From a virus, in the IMG/VR virus record IMGVR_UViG_3300037089_000505, positions 62,001 to 126,000 of that record: a stretch of DNA of 64,000 nt; one strand, given 5' to 3'. Of this stretch, positions 375 to 50,796 are shown in pieces (position 1 is the stretch's first letter; the number at the start of each line of letters is the position of its first letter). Under the pieces are notes generated by a model. It was not told where the DNA came from. It worked only from the letters and a program-made list of their open reading frames with translations, and did not search any database. The translations under genes were made by a program, and so were the position numbers.

Positions 375-713
375 ATGTTTGCTGAAGCTTTCAAAGCTAT
401 CGGTGAAGCCATAGACACGTTCTTCAACGTCGTGCCCAAGGCTATCGTAGATTTTTTCAGGGCTATGTACAAGAGCGATGCTTTTCAGAAAATGCCTTAT
501 TGGTTTCTGATCGCTTTCGCTGTCTTCAATCTTGTATTTGTTACTTGGGATATTATCTATATAATCAACACGGGCCTTATCTGGTTTCCGTTCCTGGCGG
601 CGCTTCAACTTTTTATTGCCTCGCCCTATGTGGTCGGCTTGATCAGGAAGATGCGCCAGGGAAATGTGATTTCCAGTCTGATTTCAAAGCTGAAGGGAAA
701 GAAAGATGTCTGA
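375..713 (+). CDS. Two-helix membrane protein, unknown function
   Basis: 112 residues. The ATG at 375 is chosen over an upstream TTG because GGAGG precedes it at 364-368. An amphipathic N-terminal third (AFKAIGEAIDTFFNVV) is followed by two transmembrane segments (about residues 45-65 and 70-92) and a Lys-rich tail. It overlaps the RNA ligase gene by 8 bases, so translation is probably coupled. It may be paralogous to the partial protein at the left edge. Confidence 0.7.
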   Translation: MFAEAFKAIGEAIDTFFNVVPKAIVDFFRAMYKSDAFQKMPYWFLIAFAVFNLVFVTWDIIYIINTGLIWFPFLAALQLFIASPYVVGLIRKMRQGNVISSLISKLKGKKDV

Positions 714-1746
714 AAGAAAACTCGCTTCAATCCAGAGGATCGCCAAGATCGAGCCCATCGAGGGCGCCGACGCAATCGAGCGTCTTTCCATTCTCGGCTG
801 GCATTGCGTAAGCCAGAAGGGCACCTTCAAAGAGGGAGACCTTTGTGTCTACTTTGAAGTGGACTCTTTGCTTCCTGTGAAGCCGGAATATGAATTTCTT
901 CGCAAGAGTTCGTTCAATCCTCGGCTCAATGGTTTCCGCATCACGACCATCAAACTTCGGGGTCAGATTTCGCAGGGTCTTGCCCTTCCCTGGAAAGAAT
1001 TGGAATTTGGCGACCAGAACAACATTGTCGAAGGAGCTAACGCAACAGAAGCTCTCGGCGTTCGGAAATACGAGCCCGAAATTCACCCCTCTCTCATGGG
1101 CGATGTGAAAGGCAACTTCCCATCTTACGTTCCCAAGACGGACGAGGAAAGAATCCAGAACGTTCCCAACGTTCTTACCCGCCATGCCGACAAACTCTTT
1201 GTGGCGACAGAAAAGCTGGATGGAACCTCTACTACCTTCTTTGTCTTTGAAGGAGAATTCGGAGTTTGCGGAAGAAACTGGGAACTCAAGCCGACTGAAA
1301 AGAACACCTACTGGGAAGTGGCAAGAAAGATCGATGCTGAGCTCAAGCTCAAGAAATCCGCCTGGAAGAATGTCGCCGTCCAGGGCGAAATCGTTGGACC
1401 CGGAATCCAGAAGAACAAATACGCTCTTTCTGAGTTCAAGTTCTTCGTCTACCATGTATTCGACATCGACGCCTACAGGTACTTCAACCACTCCGCGCTG
1501 ATGCATTTTTGCAAAGCCAATGGTTTTGACACAGTGCCTGAGGTTGCAGTAGATTTCCACCTGCAGGACAAAATGCCCAATGTGGAAGCAGCCGTCAATT
1601 TCTCTAACGCCAAATCGCTTCTCAATCCTGTCATCATGAGGGAGGGTGTGGTAGTCAAGTCGGCTATAGAGAACATTGATCCTGAGCTCGGGCGACTTTC
1701 ATTCAAAGTCATCAATCCCTACTTCCTACTCAAACACGAGGAATAA
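706..1746 (+). CDS. ATP-dependent RNA ligase, Rnl5 (DraRnl) type
   Basis: 346 residues. The N-terminal ~100 residues resemble the OB-like domain of the Deinococcus Rnl5 family (SIQRIAKIEPIEGADAIE start, IKLRGQISQGL). The nucleotidyltransferase domain follows, with motif I EKLDGTS and catalytic Lys170, later EGVVVK (motif IV) and SFKVINPYFLLK (motif V). Family members seal 3'-OH/5'-phosphate nicks in RNA or RNA/DNA duplexes through an AMP-lysine intermediate. Codon use is C-ending and GC-richer than the neighbours. This is one of three RNA ligases in the window, suggesting tRNA or RNA repair during infection. The family call is strong; the exact substrate is inferred. Confidence 0.88.
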   Translation: MSERKLASIQRIAKIEPIEGADAIERLSILGWHCVSQKGTFKEGDLCVYFEVDSLLPVKPEYEFLRKSSFNPRLNGFRITTIKLRGQISQGLALPWKELEFGDQNNIVEGANATEALGVRKYEPEIHPSLMGDVKGNFPSYVPKTDEERIQNVPNVLTRHADKLFVATEKLDGTSTTFFVFEGEFGVCGRNWELKPTEKNTYWEVARKIDAELKLKKSAWKNVAVQGEIVGPGIQKNKYALSEFKFFVYHVFDIDAYRYFNHSALMHFCKANGFDTVPEVAVDFHLQDKMPNVEAAVNFSNAKSLLNPVIMREGVVVKSAIENIDPELGRLSFKVINPYFLLKHEE

Positions 1747-24239: not shown

Positions 24240-25580
24240 ATGGACGAACTTAAACAACTGAACAAACTGGTCACCGAACTCAACACCACGAACTCCACCA
24301 CAGACAAAACTGAGATCCTGGCCAAGTATCCGGAATGCAAAAAACTCCTGAGCTGGACCTATGATCCCTTCATCCAGTTCTACGTCAGCTCGGACAACAT
24401 TCTCAAGATGGAAAGCCAGATCAAACCCAACGGAGTTCATACCGACATCTTCGGCCTCATGGCTGAACTCAACTCCAGAAAGTATACTGGCCACGATGCC
24501 ATCGCCTACATCCTTCAGTTCATTTCCGAAAACAAGATTTACCGGGATCTCATCCTCCGCATACTCGATCGGAACCTCAAGACTCGGGCCGATGCCAAAC
24601 TCATCAACAAAGTTTGGCCGGGAACAGTCCCTTCTTTCGAAGTGGCTCTGGCCCACAAATACAACGACTTCAAACAGAAGGTGGATTTCACCAAAGACAC
24701 TTGGTTCGCTTCCAGAAAACTGGACGGAGTCCGGGTCATCACGGTCATCTCCTCAAACGGCGATATCAAATTTCTTTCCCGCAAAGGAAAAGAATTCACC
24801 ACTCTGGACAATGTCCGCAAAGAGCTCCAGAAGAAACTCGAACCATATCGCAATGACTTCGATTTCTTCAAGGGCGGCTTGGTTCTCGACGGAGAAATGT
24901 GCATCGTCAACCAGAACGGCGATGAAAACTTCACGGACATGATCAAGCTCATCCGCCGGAAGGACTACACGGTCGAACATCCCAAGTATAAGATCTTCGA
25001 TATGATGCCTTTGGTAATCTTCGAAGAGAAAGAACCACCCAAAGGAATTCGCAATATCAGGCTGACTCATCGAATCAATCTCATCAACCTCTTCAAAGAT
25101 CAGGGCATCTTCAATGGGGGCATCTTGGACCCGGTGGAGCAGAGGAAGATCGGAACCGAGAAAGACCTCACTGACTTCATGGCTGAAGCCAATTCCAAGA
25201 ATTGGGAAGGACTCATCCTCCGGAAGGATGTCCCCTACAAGGCCGGCCGCTCTTCGGATATGCTCAAGGTCAAGGAAATGCAGGACGATGAATTCGTGGT
25301 CCAGGACGTGGAGATGGGGCCCATCCGGATCATCAAGGGCGGCAAGGAAGTCACCGAGACAATGCTCTCCGCCATCAAGATCCCTTACAAAGGTAACGTG
25401 GTCTCGGTCGGATCTGGCTTCTCCATCCAGCAGAGACAGGAATTCTACAAGGATCCTTCTAAGATCCTGGGCAAAACGGTCACCATCAAATACTTCGAGG
25501 AAACTATCAATGAGCAGGGGCTCTACTCCCTCCGGTTTCCGGTCCTCAAGACCATCTACGATGGAGACCGGGATGTTTAA
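24240..25580 (+). CDS. ATP-dependent DNA ligase
   Basis: 446 residues. An N-terminal helical region (~1-130) of T4/T7-like phage ligases, then the adenylation domain with ASRKLDGVRV (motif I, Lys160), a GEMCI strand, FDMMP, NWEGLILRKD (motif IV) and MLKVKEMQDDEFVV (motif V), ending in an OB domain. It seals nicks in DNA during replication and repair. Codon use is strongly C-ending (AAC, ATC, TTC), unlike most neighbours and like the RNA ligase at 706, suggesting high expression. Start set by position 5 bases after a promoter hexamer. Confidence 0.9.
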   Translation: MDELKQLNKLVTELNTTNSTTDKTEILAKYPECKKLLSWTYDPFIQFYVSSDNILKMESQIKPNGVHTDIFGLMAELNSRKYTGHDAIAYILQFISENKIYRDLILRILDRNLKTRADAKLINKVWPGTVPSFEVALAHKYNDFKQKVDFTKDTWFASRKLDGVRVITVISSNGDIKFLSRKGKEFTTLDNVRKELQKKLEPYRNDFDFFKGGLVLDGEMCIVNQNGDENFTDMIKLIRRKDYTVEHPKYKIFDMMPLVIFEEKEPPKGIRNIRLTHRINLINLFKDQGIFNGGILDPVEQRKIGTEKDLTDFMAEANSKNWEGLILRKDVPYKAGRSSDMLKVKEMQDDEFVVQDVEMGPIRIIKGGKEVTETMLSAIKIPYKGNVVSVGSGFSIQQRQEFYKDPSKILGKTVTIKYFEETINEQGLYSLRFPVLKTIYDGDRDV

Positions 25581-28766: not shown

Positions 28767-28958
28767 ATGGCTACCTTCTTACGTTTCATGGTTTTTATTG
28801 TCATGGGCGCTGGGGGTCTTTTCCTGGGCATCTTTTTAGTATATCTTGCCTGGACGTTTCTACCCTTGATACTTTCTATTTTCGCAACAGTCATAGCATT
28901 TGTGCTTTGGTGCTGGGGAGTAGTTGAAGTCGGGGCATGGGTCATAATTTCGGCATAG
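28767..28958 (+). CDS. Small two-helix membrane protein
   Basis: 63 residues from the ATG at 28767 (GAAAGGAAG upstream, just after the terminator). Two long hydrophobic helices and almost no loops. Last of the membrane-peptide run. Confidence 0.55.
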   Translation: MATFLRFMVFIVMGAGGLFLGIFLVYLAWTFLPLILSIFATVIAFVLWCWGVVEVGAWVIISA

Positions 28959-28966
28959 GAGAGACA

Positions 28967-29737
28967 ATGACTGATTCACTTGGCGATAGGATGAAAGGCA
29001 ATTACGAAAACCGTTCTCGGTTTTACCTGACTCGAAGAACGCCTGTCATCATTCGTGTAGATGGCCGAGCCTTTCACACTCTGACTCGCAACTGCGAAAA
29101 GCCCTTTGATGAGAGTTTGAGCAAATGCATGATCGAGACTACGATCGGACTCTGTGAAGAGATTCAAGGCGCAAAATGTGCCTACGTCCAAAGCGACGAG
29201 ATCTCAATTCTGATTACCGATTATGATCGTCTTAGCTCTGGCGCCTGGTTCGACTACAACCTCCAGAAGATGGCTTCGGTCTCAGCTTCCATCGCCACTC
29301 TAGCTTTCGGTCTTTCTATAAGAAAAATCGCTGGCGATTGGAACGATTGGAAAAGTCAAGCCAAAGCTACATTCGACTCTCGCGTTTTCAATATTCCGAG
29401 AGAAGAGGTGACCAACTATTTCGTTTGGAGACAGCAAGACTGGACTCGCAACAGCCTTGAAATGCTGGCTCGAGCCCACTATTCACACAAACAGCTGGAC
29501 AAAAAGAATGGTGCAGCAATGCACGAGATGCTCCACGAGAGGGGCGTCAATTGGGCGGATCTCCCTGACAAGTGGAAGAATGGAAGTCTCATTGTCAAAG
29601 AGTCTATTCTCATAGACCTGAATCAGGACATGGTAGCTTCAAACATGCGGTCTGAGTGGAAGCCGAAAGATCCATGTCCCATTTTCAAGAACGACCGAGA
29701 CGCTATCGAGAAGCTTCTCATACCTGAGGAGGTATAA
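28967..29737 (+). CDS. Thg1-like 3'-5' polymerase (tRNA-His guanylyltransferase family)
   Basis: 256 residues from the ATG at 28967 (AGGAGAG upstream). VIIRVDGRAFHTLTR and YVQSDEISI carry the metal-binding Asp residues; FDSRVFNIPREEVTNYFVWR followed by QQDWTRNS is the Thg1 signature region, with HEMLHERGVNWADLPDKWKN further on. Thg1 adds G-1 to tRNA-His; bacterial and phage Thg1-like proteins repair 5'-truncated tRNAs by templated 3'-to-5' addition. Together with the RNA ligases here it suits tRNA repair. Family call very firm; specific role inferred. Confidence 0.92.
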   Translation: MTDSLGDRMKGNYENRSRFYLTRRTPVIIRVDGRAFHTLTRNCEKPFDESLSKCMIETTIGLCEEIQGAKCAYVQSDEISILITDYDRLSSGAWFDYNLQKMASVSASIATLAFGLSIRKIAGDWNDWKSQAKATFDSRVFNIPREEVTNYFVWRQQDWTRNSLEMLARAHYSHKQLDKKNGAAMHEMLHERGVNWADLPDKWKNGSLIVKESILIDLNQDMVASNMRSEWKPKDPCPIFKNDRDAIEKLLIPEEV

Positions 29738-34984: not shown

Positions 34985-35563
34985 ATGGAACTCTTGAAAT
35001 TCATCGACACCAATTCTGATTGGAAAGAAAAAATCCAAGCCGAACCTTTTTGTGTCAAGGTTGAGGAAGACGAACACTACGTCCTTCTGAAATACGATCA
35101 GATTCATTCTGACTTCAATATTCCCATGGTTCGGGAATGTCGGGGTATCATCCTTACCAAAGACACTCATGAAGTGGTTTGCCATCCCTTCGACAAATTC
35201 GGCAACTATGGTGAGGGATACTGCCCAGAGATAGACTGGGCTACTGCTCGAGTTCAGTCCAAAATCGATGGCTGCTGTGATGCCGATGTTAAACTCATTA
35301 CCAAAACCGGTGAAAAGGCTATAAAAGAAATCGTTGAGGGCGAAGAAGTCCTCACTTTCAATTTCGAAAAAGACCAACCAGAATTTAATGTTGTAAAGGC
35401 AACTTCCAAAAAATTCAACAACAACGATTGGTATGAAATAGAACTAGAAAATGACCAGAAAATAAAACTGACTGGTAATCATCGTGTTTGGGTAGAAAAT
35501 CTGAAATGTTATCGCCAAGTAAAAGATCTGAAAGGCGATGAGGAGGAGGTTAAATTTATATGA
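34985..35563 (+). CDS. T4 Rnl1-type RNA ligase, N-terminal half fused to N-intein
   Basis: 192 residues. Residues 1-96 are the N-extein: the start of a T4 Rnl1-type ligase up to the active-site motif QSKIDG (catalytic Lys93). Residue 97 is the intein Cys1; CCDADVKLITKTGEKAIKEI is block A and IKLTGNHRVWV block B with the TxNH-type His166. The frame ends at 35563 with no C-intein, so the protein must splice in trans with the product of 36964. The cut falls exactly after KIDG, so neither half can form the AMP-lysine site alone. Confidence 0.9.
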   Translation: MELLKFIDTNSDWKEKIQAEPFCVKVEEDEHYVLLKYDQIHSDFNIPMVRECRGIILTKDTHEVVCHPFDKFGNYGEGYCPEIDWATARVQSKIDGCCDADVKLITKTGEKAIKEIVEGEEVLTFNFEKDQPEFNVVKATSKKFNNNDWYEIELENDQKIKLTGNHRVWVENLKCYRQVKDLKGDEEEVKFI

Positions 35564-35943
35564 TTTTAAAAATAATTCTAACAGTAGTAATGTTAGTAGT
35601 TGCATTAGTAGTTGGATTTTTACTACCCAATAATATAAGCTTTTTAGGCTCGCTTATTTTATTGGTAGTATTCTATGTAGTCTATTTTGTTTTTATTAAG
35701 CCAGTTATAAAAATGATCGACAAAGAGCTTCATTCATTCGAGCGTATAAGCAAAAAAATTATTGCAAAATATGGTACCCCAGATGAGCGAGGAATTTCTA
35801 TTTTTCCAGAAGAAAAAATGAGAGACGTGGGAGTATTAGAAGAGATTACGTGGACATGGCATAAAAAAGAGGGCGACTGGAAAGTCGTTTTTTATAGAGA
35901 TAAAGATGGATGGGCAGATTATGATGATGCTGCAGAAAGTTAA
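35560..35943 (+). CDS. Membrane protein gene inside the fractured ligase locus
   Basis: 127 residues, ATGA-coupled to the N-intein gene and preceded by GAGGAGG. Two transmembrane helices (~2-22, ~28-50), then a soluble domain (IIAKYGTPDERGISIFPEEK; ITWTWHKKEGDWKVVFYRDK). It is AT-rich. Its presence between the halves of a split gene beside the endonuclease is unexpected; it may be cargo carried with the mobile element. Function unknown. Confidence 0.65.
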   Translation: MILKIILTVVMLVVALVVGFLLPNNISFLGSLILLVVFYVVYFVFIKPVIKMIDKELHSFERISKKIIAKYGTPDERGISIFPEEKMRDVGVLEEITWTWHKKEGDWKVVFYRDKDGWADYDDAAES

Positions 35944-35973
35944 GCGTCCCATCAACTTTTCATTGAATTTGAC

Positions 35974-35984
35974 AAGATAACTCA
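35974..35984 (+). promoter_or_regulatory. Class-2 element AAGATAA-N4-ATG
   Basis: CAAGATAACTCA directly before the ATG of the endonuclease gene at 35985; same 4-base spacing as at 53471, 54196, 55821, 57167 and 63147. Confidence 0.5.
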
Positions 35985-37007
35985 ATGAGAAATATAAAAG
36001 AAAGTGTTTGTGTTTGCGGACAAAAAATTACAAACATATCAGCGATAAATCATAAAAGACATTGCCCGGTCTTTTTAAAATACCGTGATAAGTGTCTCAC
36101 TAAAGAATTTATTCAAAAAGAATATATTGAAAAGGGTCGGTCTTTAGAAGAAATACACAGAGAGCTTTCGATCCCAAGAAAATATATTGAAAGCAAAGTT
36201 TTAGAGTTTGGTTTCCAATTAAGAAACATAAAACAATCTAAAGCAACTCAATACACAAAGAACAAAACGATAGCGACTACTATTGATAGATACAGCGATG
36301 TAAATGTTTTGGGCAAGAATTCGCCAATTTACAATGAAAGAAATAAGACAGTAAAGCAAAGGTATGGCGTAAATAACGTATTTCAGCTGGCTGCCGTGAA
36401 AGAACAAATCACCAATAGTCATCTTGAAAAATACGGCAAGAAAAGAATTACTAATGGACAAAAAATATCAACAACGAGAAAAGAAAAATTTAAAGCAGGC
36501 GAATATAAATATTTCAGTAGAGCAATGTCAGAGACAGCCAAAAGCACTTATAATAAATTAAGCGAAAAAGAAAAAGTAGACAAAATGGTTCATATGAGAA
36601 AGTTTATAGACGTGAATTCTTTTATGTCAAGACCAGAAGAGAAAGTGGCGTTGATATTAACAGAGCTTAAGATTGAATTTCAACATACACTTTTCATAGG
36701 TCCATTTTCTTACGATTTTCATATCAAACATACGCCCGTAGTAATTGAAGTTCAAGGAGATTATTGGCACGCTTCCCCAGACAGATATGAAGCTAAAGAT
36801 TTACTTAGCAGACCGGGTAATAAGCTTGTTGAAGCTCAAGAGATATGGGTCAAAGATGCGGCTAAGAGGGCATACATCGAAAAATATGGATACAAAGTTT
36901 TTTACATTTGGGAACACGAACTCAAAGATTTGAAGAGTATCGAAGGTAGGTTAATATCTCTGTATGAAGAGCATAAAAATAAAAAGCATCAAGAAGATTA
37001 CAAATAA
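35985..37007 (+). CDS. Vsr-like (EDxHD-type) homing endonuclease
   Basis: 340 residues. N-terminal Cys/His finger (CVCGQKITNISAINHKRHCP), an HTH-like segment (SLEEIHRELSIPRKYIESKV), then repeated DNA-recognition blocks (RYGVNNVFQLAAVKEQITNS). The C-terminal domain (SRPEEKVALILTELKIEFQH; YDFHIKHTPVVIEVQGDYWH; AKRAYIEKYGYKVFYIWEHE) has the Vsr/very-short-patch nuclease fold with catalytic D-E-H residues. Vsr-like nucleases are the ones reported between split-intein halves in phage fractured genes. It is AT-rich, and its 3' end contains the promoter for the C half. Confidence 0.82.
   Translation: MRNIKESVCVCGQKITNISAINHKRHCPVFLKYRDKCLTKEFIQKEYIEKGRSLEEIHRELSIPRKYIESKVLEFGFQLRNIKQSKATQYTKNKTIATTIDRYSDVNVLGKNSPIYNERNKTVKQRYGVNNVFQLAAVKEQITNSHLEKYGKKRITNGQKISTTRKEKFKAGEYKYFSRAMSETAKSTYNKLSEKEKVDKMVHMRKFIDVNSFMSRPEEKVALILTELKIEFQHTLFIGPFSYDFHIKHTPVVIEVQGDYWHASPDRYEAKDLLSRPGNKLVEAQEIWVKDAAKRAYIEKYGYKVFYIWEHELKDLKSIEGRLISLYEEHKNKKHQEDYK
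36939..36957 (+). promoter_or_regulatory. Class-1 promoter for the C half of split RNA ligase
   Basis: GTATCGA, 8 bases, TAATAT, then 6 bases to the ATG at 36964; embedded in the coding sequence of the endonuclease. No SD, leaderless mRNA predicted. Confidence 0.65.
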
Positions 37008-37857
37008 CTCGAAGAGATATGATGTCCAAACTGACAACGGCAATTTCTTCGCGAATAATATCCTCGTCCACAACTCTCTCATCAAGGTTTGGTACCATAA
37101 CTTCTGGCACGTCTCTTCCAACGGTATGATCGACGCTGGGTCTTGCGATCTCTCTCTTCCGTTCGGAAGCTACAAGACGCTCGGCGATCTTTTCAGCCAG
37201 GCCTTTTTCTTCAAACACAAGAAGAGCTTGAATGATCTCAACAAGAACTACACCTATATGTTCGAGCTCATCAGCCCCTACAATCGGGTAGTCATTCCTT
37301 ACACCGAGATTGACATTTACCATATCGGCACCAGGGAAACGAAGACTGGAATAGAGCTTATCATTGATATCGGAATTCAGAGACCGAAAGAATTCAATCT
37401 TCATACTCTGGATGATGTAATCGCCGCGGCAAAAGTCCTCCCCTTCAATGATGAAGGCTACGTGGTGGTTGACGGAAAATGGAATAGAGCGAAGATCAAG
37501 TCGCCAGCTTATGTCGCCGTCCATCATCTCAGGGGCGAAGGCAATCTTTCCTACAAGCGAGTCCTGGTCTTGATCATGTCCAATGAACATACTGAGTTTC
37601 TGAACTACTTCCCTGAGTATGTTGAAGTATTCGGTCAGGTAGAAAAGAAGTATAAAGACTACGTCGAGAAACTCCTTCAGTCTGCAACTGACGCAATTCA
37701 GTATAAGAGCTTGCCTCGAAAAGAATATGCCATGTGGGCAACCAAACAGGTTGAGCCGGCCTTTCTTTTCCAACTCCTTGATGGAAGGATCAAGACGGCT
37801 GAGGAATACTTGGAACAGGTCGGGCCCGAAAAGGTTGCCAAGAAGTTGGGATACTAA
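36964..37857 (+). CDS. C-intein fused to C-terminal part of T4 Rnl1-type RNA ligase
   Basis: 297 residues. Residues 1-37 are a C-intein: block F (RYDVQTDNGNFFANNILVHN) ending in the splice His-Asn, followed by Ser38 as the +1 nucleophile. From Ser38 the extein continues the ligase: SLIKVWYHNFWHVSS joins KIDG to give KIDGSLIKVW. Then come YMFELISPYNRVVI (motif IIIa), NDEGYVVVDGKWNRAKIKSP (motifs IV and V) and the helical C-terminal domain. Spliced ligase would be 356 residues, close to T4 Rnl1 (374). The extein is GC-richer than the intein DNA. It overlaps the endonuclease gene by 44 bases. Confidence 0.9.
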   Translation: MKSIKIKSIKKITNNSKRYDVQTDNGNFFANNILVHNSLIKVWYHNFWHVSSNGMIDAGSCDLSLPFGSYKTLGDLFSQAFFFKHKKSLNDLNKNYTYMFELISPYNRVVIPYTEIDIYHIGTRETKTGIELIIDIGIQRPKEFNLHTLDDVIAAAKVLPFNDEGYVVVDGKWNRAKIKSPAYVAVHHLRGEGNLSYKRVLVLIMSNEHTEFLNYFPEYVEVFGQVEKKYKDYVEKLLQSATDAIQYKSLPRKEYAMWATKQVEPAFLFQLLDGRIKTAEEYLEQVGPEKVAKKLGY

Positions 37858-40104: not shown

Positions 40105-40314
40105 ATGGACGACCTAATCAAAGCTCTTCAAATCATGCGGAAGTATTGTAAAAACGAATACGCTCCGTGTTCTTGTGAACACGATATTCTCTACGTCAAT
40201 TGCGTGGATCCCGCTAACGTTTCTGAGGAAGACATAAAGGCACTCGATGAATTGGGGTTCAGTCCGAATTCTTCTTGGCCAGCATTCTATTCTTTCAGAT
40301 TCGGATCCTGCTAA
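40105..40314 (+). CDS. Hypothetical protein
   Basis: 69 residues. MDDLIKALQIMRKYCKNEYA and later VSEEDIKALDELGFSP with a terminal FRFGSC. Two Cys-His clusters (PCSCEHD). Resembles small phage proteins that precede other genes; SD AAGGAG. Confidence 0.5.
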   Translation: MDDLIKALQIMRKYCKNEYAPCSCEHDILYVNCVDPANVSEEDIKALDELGFSPNSSWPAFYSFRFGSC

Positions 40315-40324
40315 GGAAAAACAT

Positions 40325-41629
40325 ATGGAACTTAAAGGAAAATACGCTAACGCAATCGTCTACAACGACTTAGTCGAGGCTACCTGTATCTCGCAGATTC
40401 TTGGCCTGTTAAACCATCCTCTGTCTGAAAACTCCAACCCTCGCTTCATGCCAGATTTGCACGCGGGAAAAGGCTGTGTCATCGGCTATACTGCTATTCT
40501 TCCGCCTGATGGAAAGGTAGTTCCTAACCTCATCGGTGTAGATAAGGGATGTGGCGTCTATACCATTTGCCTTGGATTCTTGGCCGATATCGGCGAAAAG
40601 TTTGACAAGCTTGACAGGTTCATTCGCAACGAAATTCCTTCCGGGTTCAAGAGCAACGAACGAACCAATCAGGATCTGGAGGAAATTTTCCGAAAGGGAC
40701 TTGCGAGCAATGGTCTTTATGCAAACATCCGTGATTTCGATGTCGCCCTTAAGGAAGTGTGCAAGCGTCAGGATCAGAGCTATGATGCGGTAATGAGACA
40801 GATTGGAACTCTCGGCGGTGGAAATCACTTCATTGAAGTTGGACTCGACGAAGAGAATCGTCTTTGGCTGACGATCCACTCTGGCTCGAGACACTTCGGA
40901 AACATCAGCTGTCTCTTCCATCAGAAAAAGGCACAGAACAAATACCTCGGTCTCGATGATGAAACCTTCCGAGCAAAGGTGGAGGAAATCAAACGGACCA
41001 AGCACGGTAAAGGTATTGAAGCAGCAATTCAGAGACTCCGTTCAGAAGCCCGGAAGGGTGGCAAGAAACCCAACGGTCTTGAGTGGTTAGAGGGCAAAGA
41101 TCGCGAAACTTACATTCACGACTTGAAAGTTGCTCAGTTGTATGCAAAACTCAATCGCCATACGATGGCCTACGCTATTGTGAACGGCTTCTACAAGCTG
41201 GACATTTTCAGCCTGAAGAGAATTGAGTCTGTCCACAACTACATCAACTTCGAAGATAACATCGTTCGAAAGGGCGCGATCTCTGCTCATATCGGAGAAG
41301 AGGTTGTCATTCCCTTCAACATGAGAGACGGTTTGATCATTGGAATTGGAAAAGGAAATCCTGACTGGAACTTTTCTGCACCGCACGGGTCTGGAAGGAA
41401 GATGTCTCGTTCGGCCGCAAAAGGCCTGGACCTTGCTCATTTCGAGAAAGTTATGAAGGATGCGGGTATCTGGTCTACTTCAATAGGTAAAGACACACTC
41501 GATGAATCGCCCATGGCCTACAAGAACACTGAAGACATTGTGGCTCTTTTAGGGCCGACTGTAGAAATTAAGCATCGCGTGAAGCCAATCTACAATTTCA
41601 AGTCTGGCAAAGAAGAGGAAAGAGAATAA
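40325..41629 (+). CDS. rtcB: RtcB-type RNA ligase
   Basis: 434 residues from the ATG at 40325. DLHAGKGCVIGYTAILP, IGVDKGCGVYT (metal Asp and Cys), TLGGGNHFIEVG, IHSGSRHFG and SAPHGSGRKMSRSAAKG (guanylylated His) cover the active site. RtcB joins 2',3'-cyclic phosphate or 3'-phosphate ends to 5'-OH ends using GTP and Mn, the ends left by tRNA-cleaving anticodon nucleases and toxins. It complements the 5'-phosphate-dependent RNA ligases in this window. No archease is visible here. Confidence 0.93.
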   Translation: MELKGKYANAIVYNDLVEATCISQILGLLNHPLSENSNPRFMPDLHAGKGCVIGYTAILPPDGKVVPNLIGVDKGCGVYTICLGFLADIGEKFDKLDRFIRNEIPSGFKSNERTNQDLEEIFRKGLASNGLYANIRDFDVALKEVCKRQDQSYDAVMRQIGTLGGGNHFIEVGLDEENRLWLTIHSGSRHFGNISCLFHQKKAQNKYLGLDDETFRAKVEEIKRTKHGKGIEAAIQRLRSEARKGGKKPNGLEWLEGKDRETYIHDLKVAQLYAKLNRHTMAYAIVNGFYKLDIFSLKRIESVHNYINFEDNIVRKGAISAHIGEEVVIPFNMRDGLIIGIGKGNPDWNFSAPHGSGRKMSRSAAKGLDLAHFEKVMKDAGIWSTSIGKDTLDESPMAYKNTEDIVALLGPTVEIKHRVKPIYNFKSGKEEERE

Positions 41630-50167: not shown

Positions 50168-50368
50168 ATGGAAGAAATGGAAGCTAGAGAATTAGCAAAA
50201 CAGCGCAATCTTAAACGTGCCGCTAAAAGATACGAACAAAACAAAATGGCAATAGAAAAAGCCAACGAAGATTTACAAAGACGCATATCTAAAAGAACAT
50301 TAGAGATATTAGATTCAAGTATGAAAAATTTTAAGAAAGGTAAAGTGAGTGATCCCATTGACATTTAG
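50168..50368 (+). CDS. Basic helical protein
   Basis: 66 residues from the ATG at 50168 (AAGGGG upstream). Nearly one long charged helix (EARELAKQRNLKRAAKRYEQ). Its stop codon ends at the first base of the tmRNA gene. Confidence 0.5.
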   Translation: MEEMEARELAKQRNLKRAAKRYEQNKMAIEKANEDLQRRISKRTLEILDSSMKNFKKGKVSDPIDI

Positions 50369-50720
50369 GGGACGTTAAGGTTTCGACTGGAATTGGTTCG
50401 GTCTTGGATCGCAAGTAGAGTGCTAAACTCTTAAATTAGCAAAAACACAACTGCCGAAAATTTTGACGCAGATTTTGCTCTGGCTGCTTAAACAGTCCTC
50501 GCACGGGTCTTCAGAGTCTAGTCTCCAACATCTGAATTAACCTGAAACAAATCGAGACTTACTTATAGATGATTTCGTTACATCTCTAAGAAAACTATAA
50601 CGAATTTGATAAAGAGCAGAAGTTGGCTCTTAACTCTTTATCGAGAAAACAATACCAACTAAACTTGTAGAAGTTCTTGATCAGCATTCCAACACGCGGG
50701 TCCGACTCCCGCCGTCTCCA
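50368..50720 (+). ncRNA. ssrA: Transfer-messenger RNA (tmRNA)
   Basis: The 5' end GGGGACGTTAAGG and 3' end CCGTCTCC-A form the tRNA-like acceptor (one G-T pair), with TTTCGACTGG following the 5' arm and a T-arm GCGGG-TCCGACT-CCCGC near the 3' end. CCA is not encoded.
The tag frame ends ...AENFDADFALAA then TAA at 50489-50491, the usual ALAA proteolysis signal; the resume codon is near 50438-50453. Length about 353 nt. It would rescue stalled ribosomes and tag products; SmpB is not seen in the window. Confidence 0.93.
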
Positions 50721-50796
50721 TAAAGAAGATAAAATATTATCTCTTCTTGAAATTAGAAAGTGTCTAAAGATAAAATACACGAGGTAAAAAATAAAC

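Follow-up and report, generated by a model that had tools for sequence, protein, structure and literature searches.

A T4 Rnl1-type RNA ligase gene fractured after its catalytic lysine motif, probably by a mobile split intein, in an uncultured virus

Results

A ligase gene in two halves

The window analysed here is a 64,000-nucleotide stretch of the virus record IMGVR_UViG_3300037089_000505, covering bases 62,001-126,000 of its 143,947 bp. At window positions 34985-37857, four plus-strand genes lie head to tail: the N half of an RNA ligase gene, a 127-amino-acid (aa) open reading frame (ORF), a homing-endonuclease-like gene, and the C half of the ligase gene. A first-pass annotation, made from the sequence alone, had described this locus as a gene fractured by a split intein, and its coordinates proved correct when the ORFs were re-read.

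34985-35272, plus strand: N-extein, residues 1-96 of a T4 Rnl1-type RNA ligase, ending in motif I KIDG with the catalytic Lys93 (PHROG 562, 2.3e-11; PF09511; gap-free alignment with intact phage ligases)
35273-35563, plus strand: IntN, the N-terminal portion (96 aa) of a split intein, with Cys1 and the block B motif LTGNH, followed by a stop codon (PF14890, 4.4e-8; TIGR01445; alignment with 15 other Rnl1 inteins)
35541-35549, plus strand: Shine-Dalgarno-like AGGAGGAGG within the end of the IntN coding sequence, 10 nt upstream of the 127-aa ORF (sequence)
35560-35943, plus strand: 127-aa ORF, putative membrane protein and orphan, with a start that overlaps the stop of the N half (hydropathy; guanine-cytosine (GC) content 32%)
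35985-37007, plus strand: homing-endonuclease-like gene, free-standing, 340 aa, Vsr/EDxHD type with D244, E255 and GD..H262 (TIGR00632 vsr, 1.3e-5; PHROG homing endonuclease; profile and AlphaFold matches to I-Bth0305I and Vsr)
36964-37074, plus strand: IntC, the 37-aa C-terminal half of the split intein, starting inside the nuclease gene and ending in His36-Asn37 (PF14890; TIGR01443)
37075-37857, plus strand: C-extein, the other 260 ligase residues from Ser+1 (SLIKVW), with motifs III, IV and V (PHROG 562, 1.9e-31; TIGR02308, 4.7e-13; alignment with T4 Rnl1)

The N-half ORF (34985-35563; 192 aa, predicted 22.5 kDa) reads ...QSKIDG/CCDADVKLIT..., where the slash marks the intein-extein junction, and the C-half ORF (36964-37857; 297 aa, predicted 34.4 kDa) opens with an IntC that reads ...NFFANNILVHN/SLIKVW. 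Both ligase parts have a GC content of 44-46%, as compared to 32-36% in the intein pieces, the 127-aa ORF and the nuclease gene, so that the insert looks like a single foreign cassette. The DNA pattern of the C-intein/extein junction occurs once in the window and in none of 100 shuffles. Scans for promoters and terminators yielded nothing beyond consensus-level matches, which were set aside, and nucleotide searches against sequenced phages, near and distant, found no match.

Joined in silico, the two exteins yield a ligase of 356 aa and 41.4 kDa, in agreement with the 356 residues and ∼41 kDa expected on first pass. The joined ligase scores 42.5 bits on PF09511 (cut-off 28.3), as compared to 23 for the N half and no match for the C half, and on PF14890 (cut-off 35.8) the 133-aa intein made of both pieces reaches 50.9 bits, as compared to 33.5 and 20.2 for its halves; since both joined products clear Pfam cut-offs that the halves miss, the match is above chance. 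Against the NCBIfam equivalog TIGR02308 (cut-off 242 bits), the C half by itself scores 49 bits. At the break, KIDG/SLIK aligns without a gap on the KVDGSLI of intact phage ligases, which places the break directly after motif I as first annotated. Motifs I, III, IV and V are conserved, and K93, D95, G96, E160, E223, K236 and K238 are invariant between the joined ligase and its phage relatives. Profiles and alignment with T4 Rnl1 and intact phage ligases likewise bear out the proposed T4 Rnl1-type identity, and the two ORFs are predicted to encode jointly the whole of this conserved enzyme. Its closest relatives are ligases of uncultured phages (47-50% identity), and the single PF09511 match in the whole record leaves it without a second Rnl1. 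A metagenome search for the uninterrupted allele, suggested on first pass, found it: motif I is uninterrupted in every one of the 80 top-ranking other Rnl1 relatives in IMG/VR.

The split intein and the nuclease between the halves

Both ends of the intein exceed their NCBIfam cut-offs (TIGR01445, 27.9 against 24.5; TIGR01443, 16.0 against 15.6). A profile comparison, named beforehand as a possible refutation, instead identified the N-half extension as an intein, and together with PF14890 these matches confirm IntN at the end of the N half and IntC at the start of the C half. All of the features of a class 1 intein are present (Cys1, the LTGNH block B, His36-Asn37 and Ser+1). Cys1, LT[GA]NH, the terminal HN and Ser+1 are retained in every aligned Rnl1 intein (the window intein and 15 others), and 13 of these 16 carry Cys-Cys at positions 1-2. 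Among solved structures, the intein comes closest to the NrdJ-1 split intein (PDB 8UBS, E 1.5e-12). No other intein was found in the whole record.

The nuclease of the window is full length, and D244, E255, G258 and H262, among other residues, are invariant across 23 aligned nuclease rows. A profile built from this alignment matched I-Bth0305I (3R3P) first and Vsr next. The AlphaFold model (predicted local distance difference test score, pLDDT, 85) matched 3R3P with a template modeling (TM) score of 0.81-0.85 on the target, and Vsr was among the next matches. The gene product is thus modeled as a nuclease with a Vsr-like catalytic fold, whose conserved acidic residues and histidine make it EDxHD/Vsr-like; a Vsr-like nuclease had been proposed. 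I-Bth0305I belongs to the EDxHD family, and its nuclease domain is linked to modular regions that bind DNA (reviewed in PMC3943268). The wider description of the locus, a fractured gene with a Vsr-like nuclease between its halves, is upheld by profiles, alignments, trees and fold comparison alike.

Related nucleases were seen in other settings. A second, shorter Vsr-like nuclease (240 aa), which shares 44% identity in the catalytic domain, lies outside the window at ∼26.4 kb of the record (L282, 1144-1866), and no intein was found near it. In L021 (3895-4986), a nuclease-like ORF sits directly upstream of an uninterrupted Rnl1 and overlaps its start region, without an intein. The nuclease search also returned three loci (L095, L096 and L097, ∼4.3-5.9 kb) in which IMPDH-like C halves with C-inteins (IIVHN/SLCETRIRTGVG) stand beside related nucleases.

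The same break in other Rnl1 genes

Scans of IMG/VR added 17 distinct Rnl1 loci that carry an intein at precisely KxDG/S, 16 of them split and one contiguous (L092, L162, L193, L200, L201, L202, L203, L205, L207/L160, L209, L211, L213, L214, L225, L226, L227 and L228; L162 is a group of near-identical contigs). They were reached with a degenerate junction DNA pattern, by alignment scans with the N and C halves, and by a search with the nuclease alone. L092 was the best match of the nuclease-only search and carries the same ligase site, which ties the nuclease to the site. The state of the nuclease varies among the loci:

Nuclease co-directional: window, L193, L200, L203, L211, L213, L225, L228; short in L209
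Nuclease on the opposite strand: L092, L160/L207, L205, L227
Nuclease broken or a remnant: L214, L162
Nuclease absent, intein still split: L201, L202
Contiguous form: L226, a single 519-aa ORF with a 127-aa mini-intein

Frameshifts are present in L092 and L214. The AlphaFold model of L226 is usable for the ligase and poor for the intein (block pLDDT ∼33-68), so its weak intein match to NrdJ-1 is supportive only. The C half alone, as a single-sequence query, found nothing in its scan, and the N half had no relative among species genomes. Searches of sequenced phages with the window and L213 inteins did not find a fractured ligase; their matches there were a Lak-phage helicase, the SP-15 terminase, UvsW-type helicases and a Streptococcus phage gene.

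These loci bear on what had been put forward as new, an RNA ligase broken at its active-site motif plus an additional membrane-protein gene. The ligase break at motif I stands, no longer as a singleton given at least 17 further distinct Rnl1 loci. The 127-aa ORF, hydrophobic over residues 1-54 by hydropathy, is present only in the window locus among the fractured Rnl1 loci found, and is therefore not part of the general arrangement. Several search routes found no relatives of this ORF and only sub-threshold family matches; by composition and overlapping start, it appears to have come with or into the cassette.

Mobility and selection

In the ligase tree, the 16 intein-bearing rows need 11 state changes, at least 8 of them forced by well-supported branches, and the window ligase is the sole intein-bearing member of a supported group of 35. 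In the intein tree, a branch with support 94/97 (77/95 when more outgroups are included) has the Rnl1 inteins on one side. The nearest neighbor of the window intein is that of L226, the ligase of which is only 23% identical to the window ligase, and the intein is more alike than its host ligase in 119 of 120 pairs. This disagreement between the intein and ligase trees indicates that the element moves. Purifying selection acts on the intein and exteins of relatives, including loci in which the nuclease is dead or lost, with an intein ratio of nonsynonymous to synonymous substitution rates (dN/dS) of ∼0.07-0.09 in eight relatives, at dS values near saturation. Tree discord, intein similarity and purifying selection support the horizontal spread of what is probably a working splicing element. 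In the unrooted intein tree, L226 may be either a re-fusion or an ancestral contiguous form.

Breaks after the catalytic lysine motif in other ligases

The same IMG/VR scans found split inteins directly after the catalytic-lysine motif of other ligases:

Joined exteins match RNA_ligase PF09414: L233, L268, L271, L212b; in L235 the break is two residues later
Joined exteins match the ATP-dependent DNA ligase family PF01068: L252, L262, L269
Joined exteins match the NAD-dependent DNA ligase family PF01653: L244
EKLDG/SN, without a Pfam match: L242

The query matches these loci chiefly through the intein part (e.g., over residues 5-51 or 1-38), and the enrichment for ligase hosts, in a limited sample seeded on Rnl1 inteins, thus does not simply come from the extein. 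In the intein tree, 33 ligase inteins stand apart from those of ribonucleotide reductase, helicase, polymerase and DnaX (support 98/93). The L212b and L063b inteins fall outside this group, and inteins thus probably arrived at motif I two or more times; a single clade for all motif I inteins is not rejected by the approximately unbiased test (p-AU 0.148).

Two fractured PF09414-like ligases (L245 and L246), whose inteins are among the 33, are broken elsewhere (DEER/C.NL), upstream of motif I; the intact ligase at window 706-1746 has DEERIQN at this site. On one contig, two RNA ligases are both fractured within a few kb of each other (L212/L217, ∼5-7 kb and 10.3-12.9 kb), an Rnl1 broken at KCDG/SLI and a PF09414 ligase broken at KLHG/SNAGI by an intein of a different lineage. 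In L063 (6183-8567; also L064), an uninterrupted Rnl1 lies beside a fractured PF09414-like ligase (KLHG/SNFGV) that has its own nuclease.

RNA and DNA repair genes of the phage

The window encodes several further genes of repair and translation, as well as five tRNAs at 57-61 kb:

706-1746: PF09414 RNA ligase, uninterrupted at KxDG
24240-25580: ATP-dependent DNA ligase, uninterrupted at KxDG
28937-29737: Thg1-like gene
40247-41629: RtcB
50368-50723, plus strand: complete tmRNA gene with the tag AENFDADFALAA (Rfam RF00023, 127.9 bits)

Given RtcB, the Thg1-like gene, the second RNA ligase, the tRNAs and the tmRNA, a fractured RNA ligase fits a role in RNA repair.

Discussion

We propose that this locus is a T4 Rnl1-type RNA ligase gene fractured by a mobile split intein, in which trans-splicing would restore the ligase and the nuclease would drive homing, and we give this reading a probability of roughly 0.87. 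From the observed layout, identities of the parts, splicing residues, intein selection and tree discord, we infer splicing, cutting and homing as follows. The two halves would be translated as separate proteins, and the 96-aa IntN and 37-aa IntC would bind each other. Class 1 trans-splicing, through an acyl shift at Cys1, transfer to Ser+1 and cyclisation of Asn37, would then join ...QSKIDG to SLIKVW... and release the 356-aa, 41.4-kDa ligase. Neither half should be active before splicing, as one carries Lys93 and the other motifs III-V. The target of the nuclease is most likely the uninterrupted rnl1 allele of a co-infecting phage, which would be cut close to the motif I codons and would receive a copy of the cassette as the break is repaired. 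Protein conservation at these codons would keep the site present, and imprecise loss of the element would kill the enzyme.

Some observations count against this proposal. The nuclease start lacks a clear Shine-Dalgarno sequence and that of the C half is weakly placed; the ligase tree comes from a quick search with support by the Shimodaira-Hasegawa-like approximate likelihood ratio test (SH-aLRT) only; the selection estimates suffer from the near-saturated dS; and, as the phage has other RNA ligases, loss of the fractured one might be tolerated. One alternative is a decaying pseudogene, in which insertion of the nuclease gene broke a dispensable RNA ligase and the intein splices no longer. The presence of RtcB and a PF09414 RNA ligase and the frameshifts in L092 and L214 speak for decay, but the intein catalytic residues and ligase motifs are all intact in the window, selection has purified intein and exteins in relatives even where the nuclease is dead or lost, and a contiguous, spliceable form exists in L226. 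We consider decay quite improbable. A regulatory role, in which the split intein persists for its use as an RNA-repair switch (e.g., redox control via Cys1-Cys2) and the nuclease is secondary, seems unlikely to us but deserves somewhat more credit. Insertion at the catalytic motif would make activity dependent on splicing, the Cys-Cys pair recurs in most of the aligned Rnl1 inteins, and split forms persist without a nuclease in L201 and L202. However, the window nuclease is full length with all of its invariant residues, and the patchy distribution is a better fit to mobility than to conserved regulation.

Split inteins associate tightly, and the halves together carry all of the ligase motifs, so one could picture a two-chain ligase whose halves are non-covalent subunits dimerised, without splicing, by the intein pieces. 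The residues kept in all aligned Rnl1 inteins (Cys1, the block B His, the terminal His-Asn and Ser+1) nevertheless serve chemistry rather than binding, and L226 has a contiguous intein at the same site, which leaves this idea a very slim chance. An assembly artefact or chimera might be suspected of one uncultured contig to which no sequenced phage is closely related, but was rejected, with next to no probability remaining, as the same layout recurs across many independent contigs, six near-identical ones included.

Beyond the mobile element proposed for the window locus, the relatives suggest a broader picture, to which we give about even odds. A phage split-intein lineage with Vsr-like nucleases may have specialised on motif I (KxDG or KxHG) of the polynucleotide ligase superfamily and moved among Rnl1, Rnl2-like RNA ligases, and ATP- and NAD-dependent DNA ligases, running through a full cycle in which the nuclease lies in either orientation, decays and is lost, and the split intein is possibly re-fused. 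Polynucleotide ligases join the enzymes known to be fractured by split inteins, and the break recurs across ligase families at a single point defined by chemistry, immediately after the lysine motif that accepts the nucleotide. Empty sites, contiguous inteins, and split inteins with a nuclease in both orientations, with a dead nuclease or with none all occur at one site, which makes the origin, spread and reversion of split inteins directly testable. The loci also provide new natural split inteins, with C pieces of 34-40 aa and Ser+1 (Thr or Cys in some related ligases), as a resource for protein engineering. If the ligase is spliced as proposed, phage RNA repair would depend on a protein-splicing step.

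Comparison with known systems

Dassa et al. reportedly described, in 2009, fractured genes in which split inteins are accompanied by Vsr-like endonucleases, the hosts being enzymes of DNA synthesis and repair. The window locus shares with them an enzyme in two ORFs, a split-intein half on each, and a free-standing Vsr-type nuclease in between. It differs in its host, an RNA ligase (and other ligases in relatives), in the break right after the catalytic-lysine motif, and in the extra membrane-like gene. Text searches of the literature, with partial coverage that did not extend to the founding 2009 paper, found no paper linking split inteins to RNA or DNA ligase hosts.

The individual parts also have known counterparts. 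The NrdJ-1 split intein has fragments of similar sizes and ends in NFFANDILVH, but its host is a ribonucleotide reductase and it falls outside the ligase-intein group in the tree. For the nuclease domain, I-Bth0305I is the top match by both fold and profile; it was deposited as a mobile-intron protein, whereas the window gene stands free between the halves of a split intein and its product differs in its N-terminal region, which is longer. The spliced product aligns with T4 RNA ligase 1 (2C5U, E 3.5e-11) over motifs I, III, IV and V, although the T4 enzyme is one uninterrupted chain and only distantly related.

Among cultured phages, split inteins of Proteus phage PM2, Bacillus phage SP-15 and Pseudomonas phage MIJ3 likewise occur in genes in two pieces with an intervening gene, but the host genes differ and the nuclease types differ in part; the MIJ3 PolB split intein was reported with an HNH nuclease (PMC6892783). 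Three fractured genes are not labelled as such in their records, namely a UvsW-type helicase in PM2 (L011, 1814-4546), a terminase in SP-15 (L010, 2327-5071) and a helicase in Lak-B2 (L009, 2536-5512), each with its break at or near Walker B (DE/C.H) and an ORF between the halves. Set against these systems, the mechanism and the nuclease family are known, while the host class and the evidence for a superfamily-wide site preference are new.

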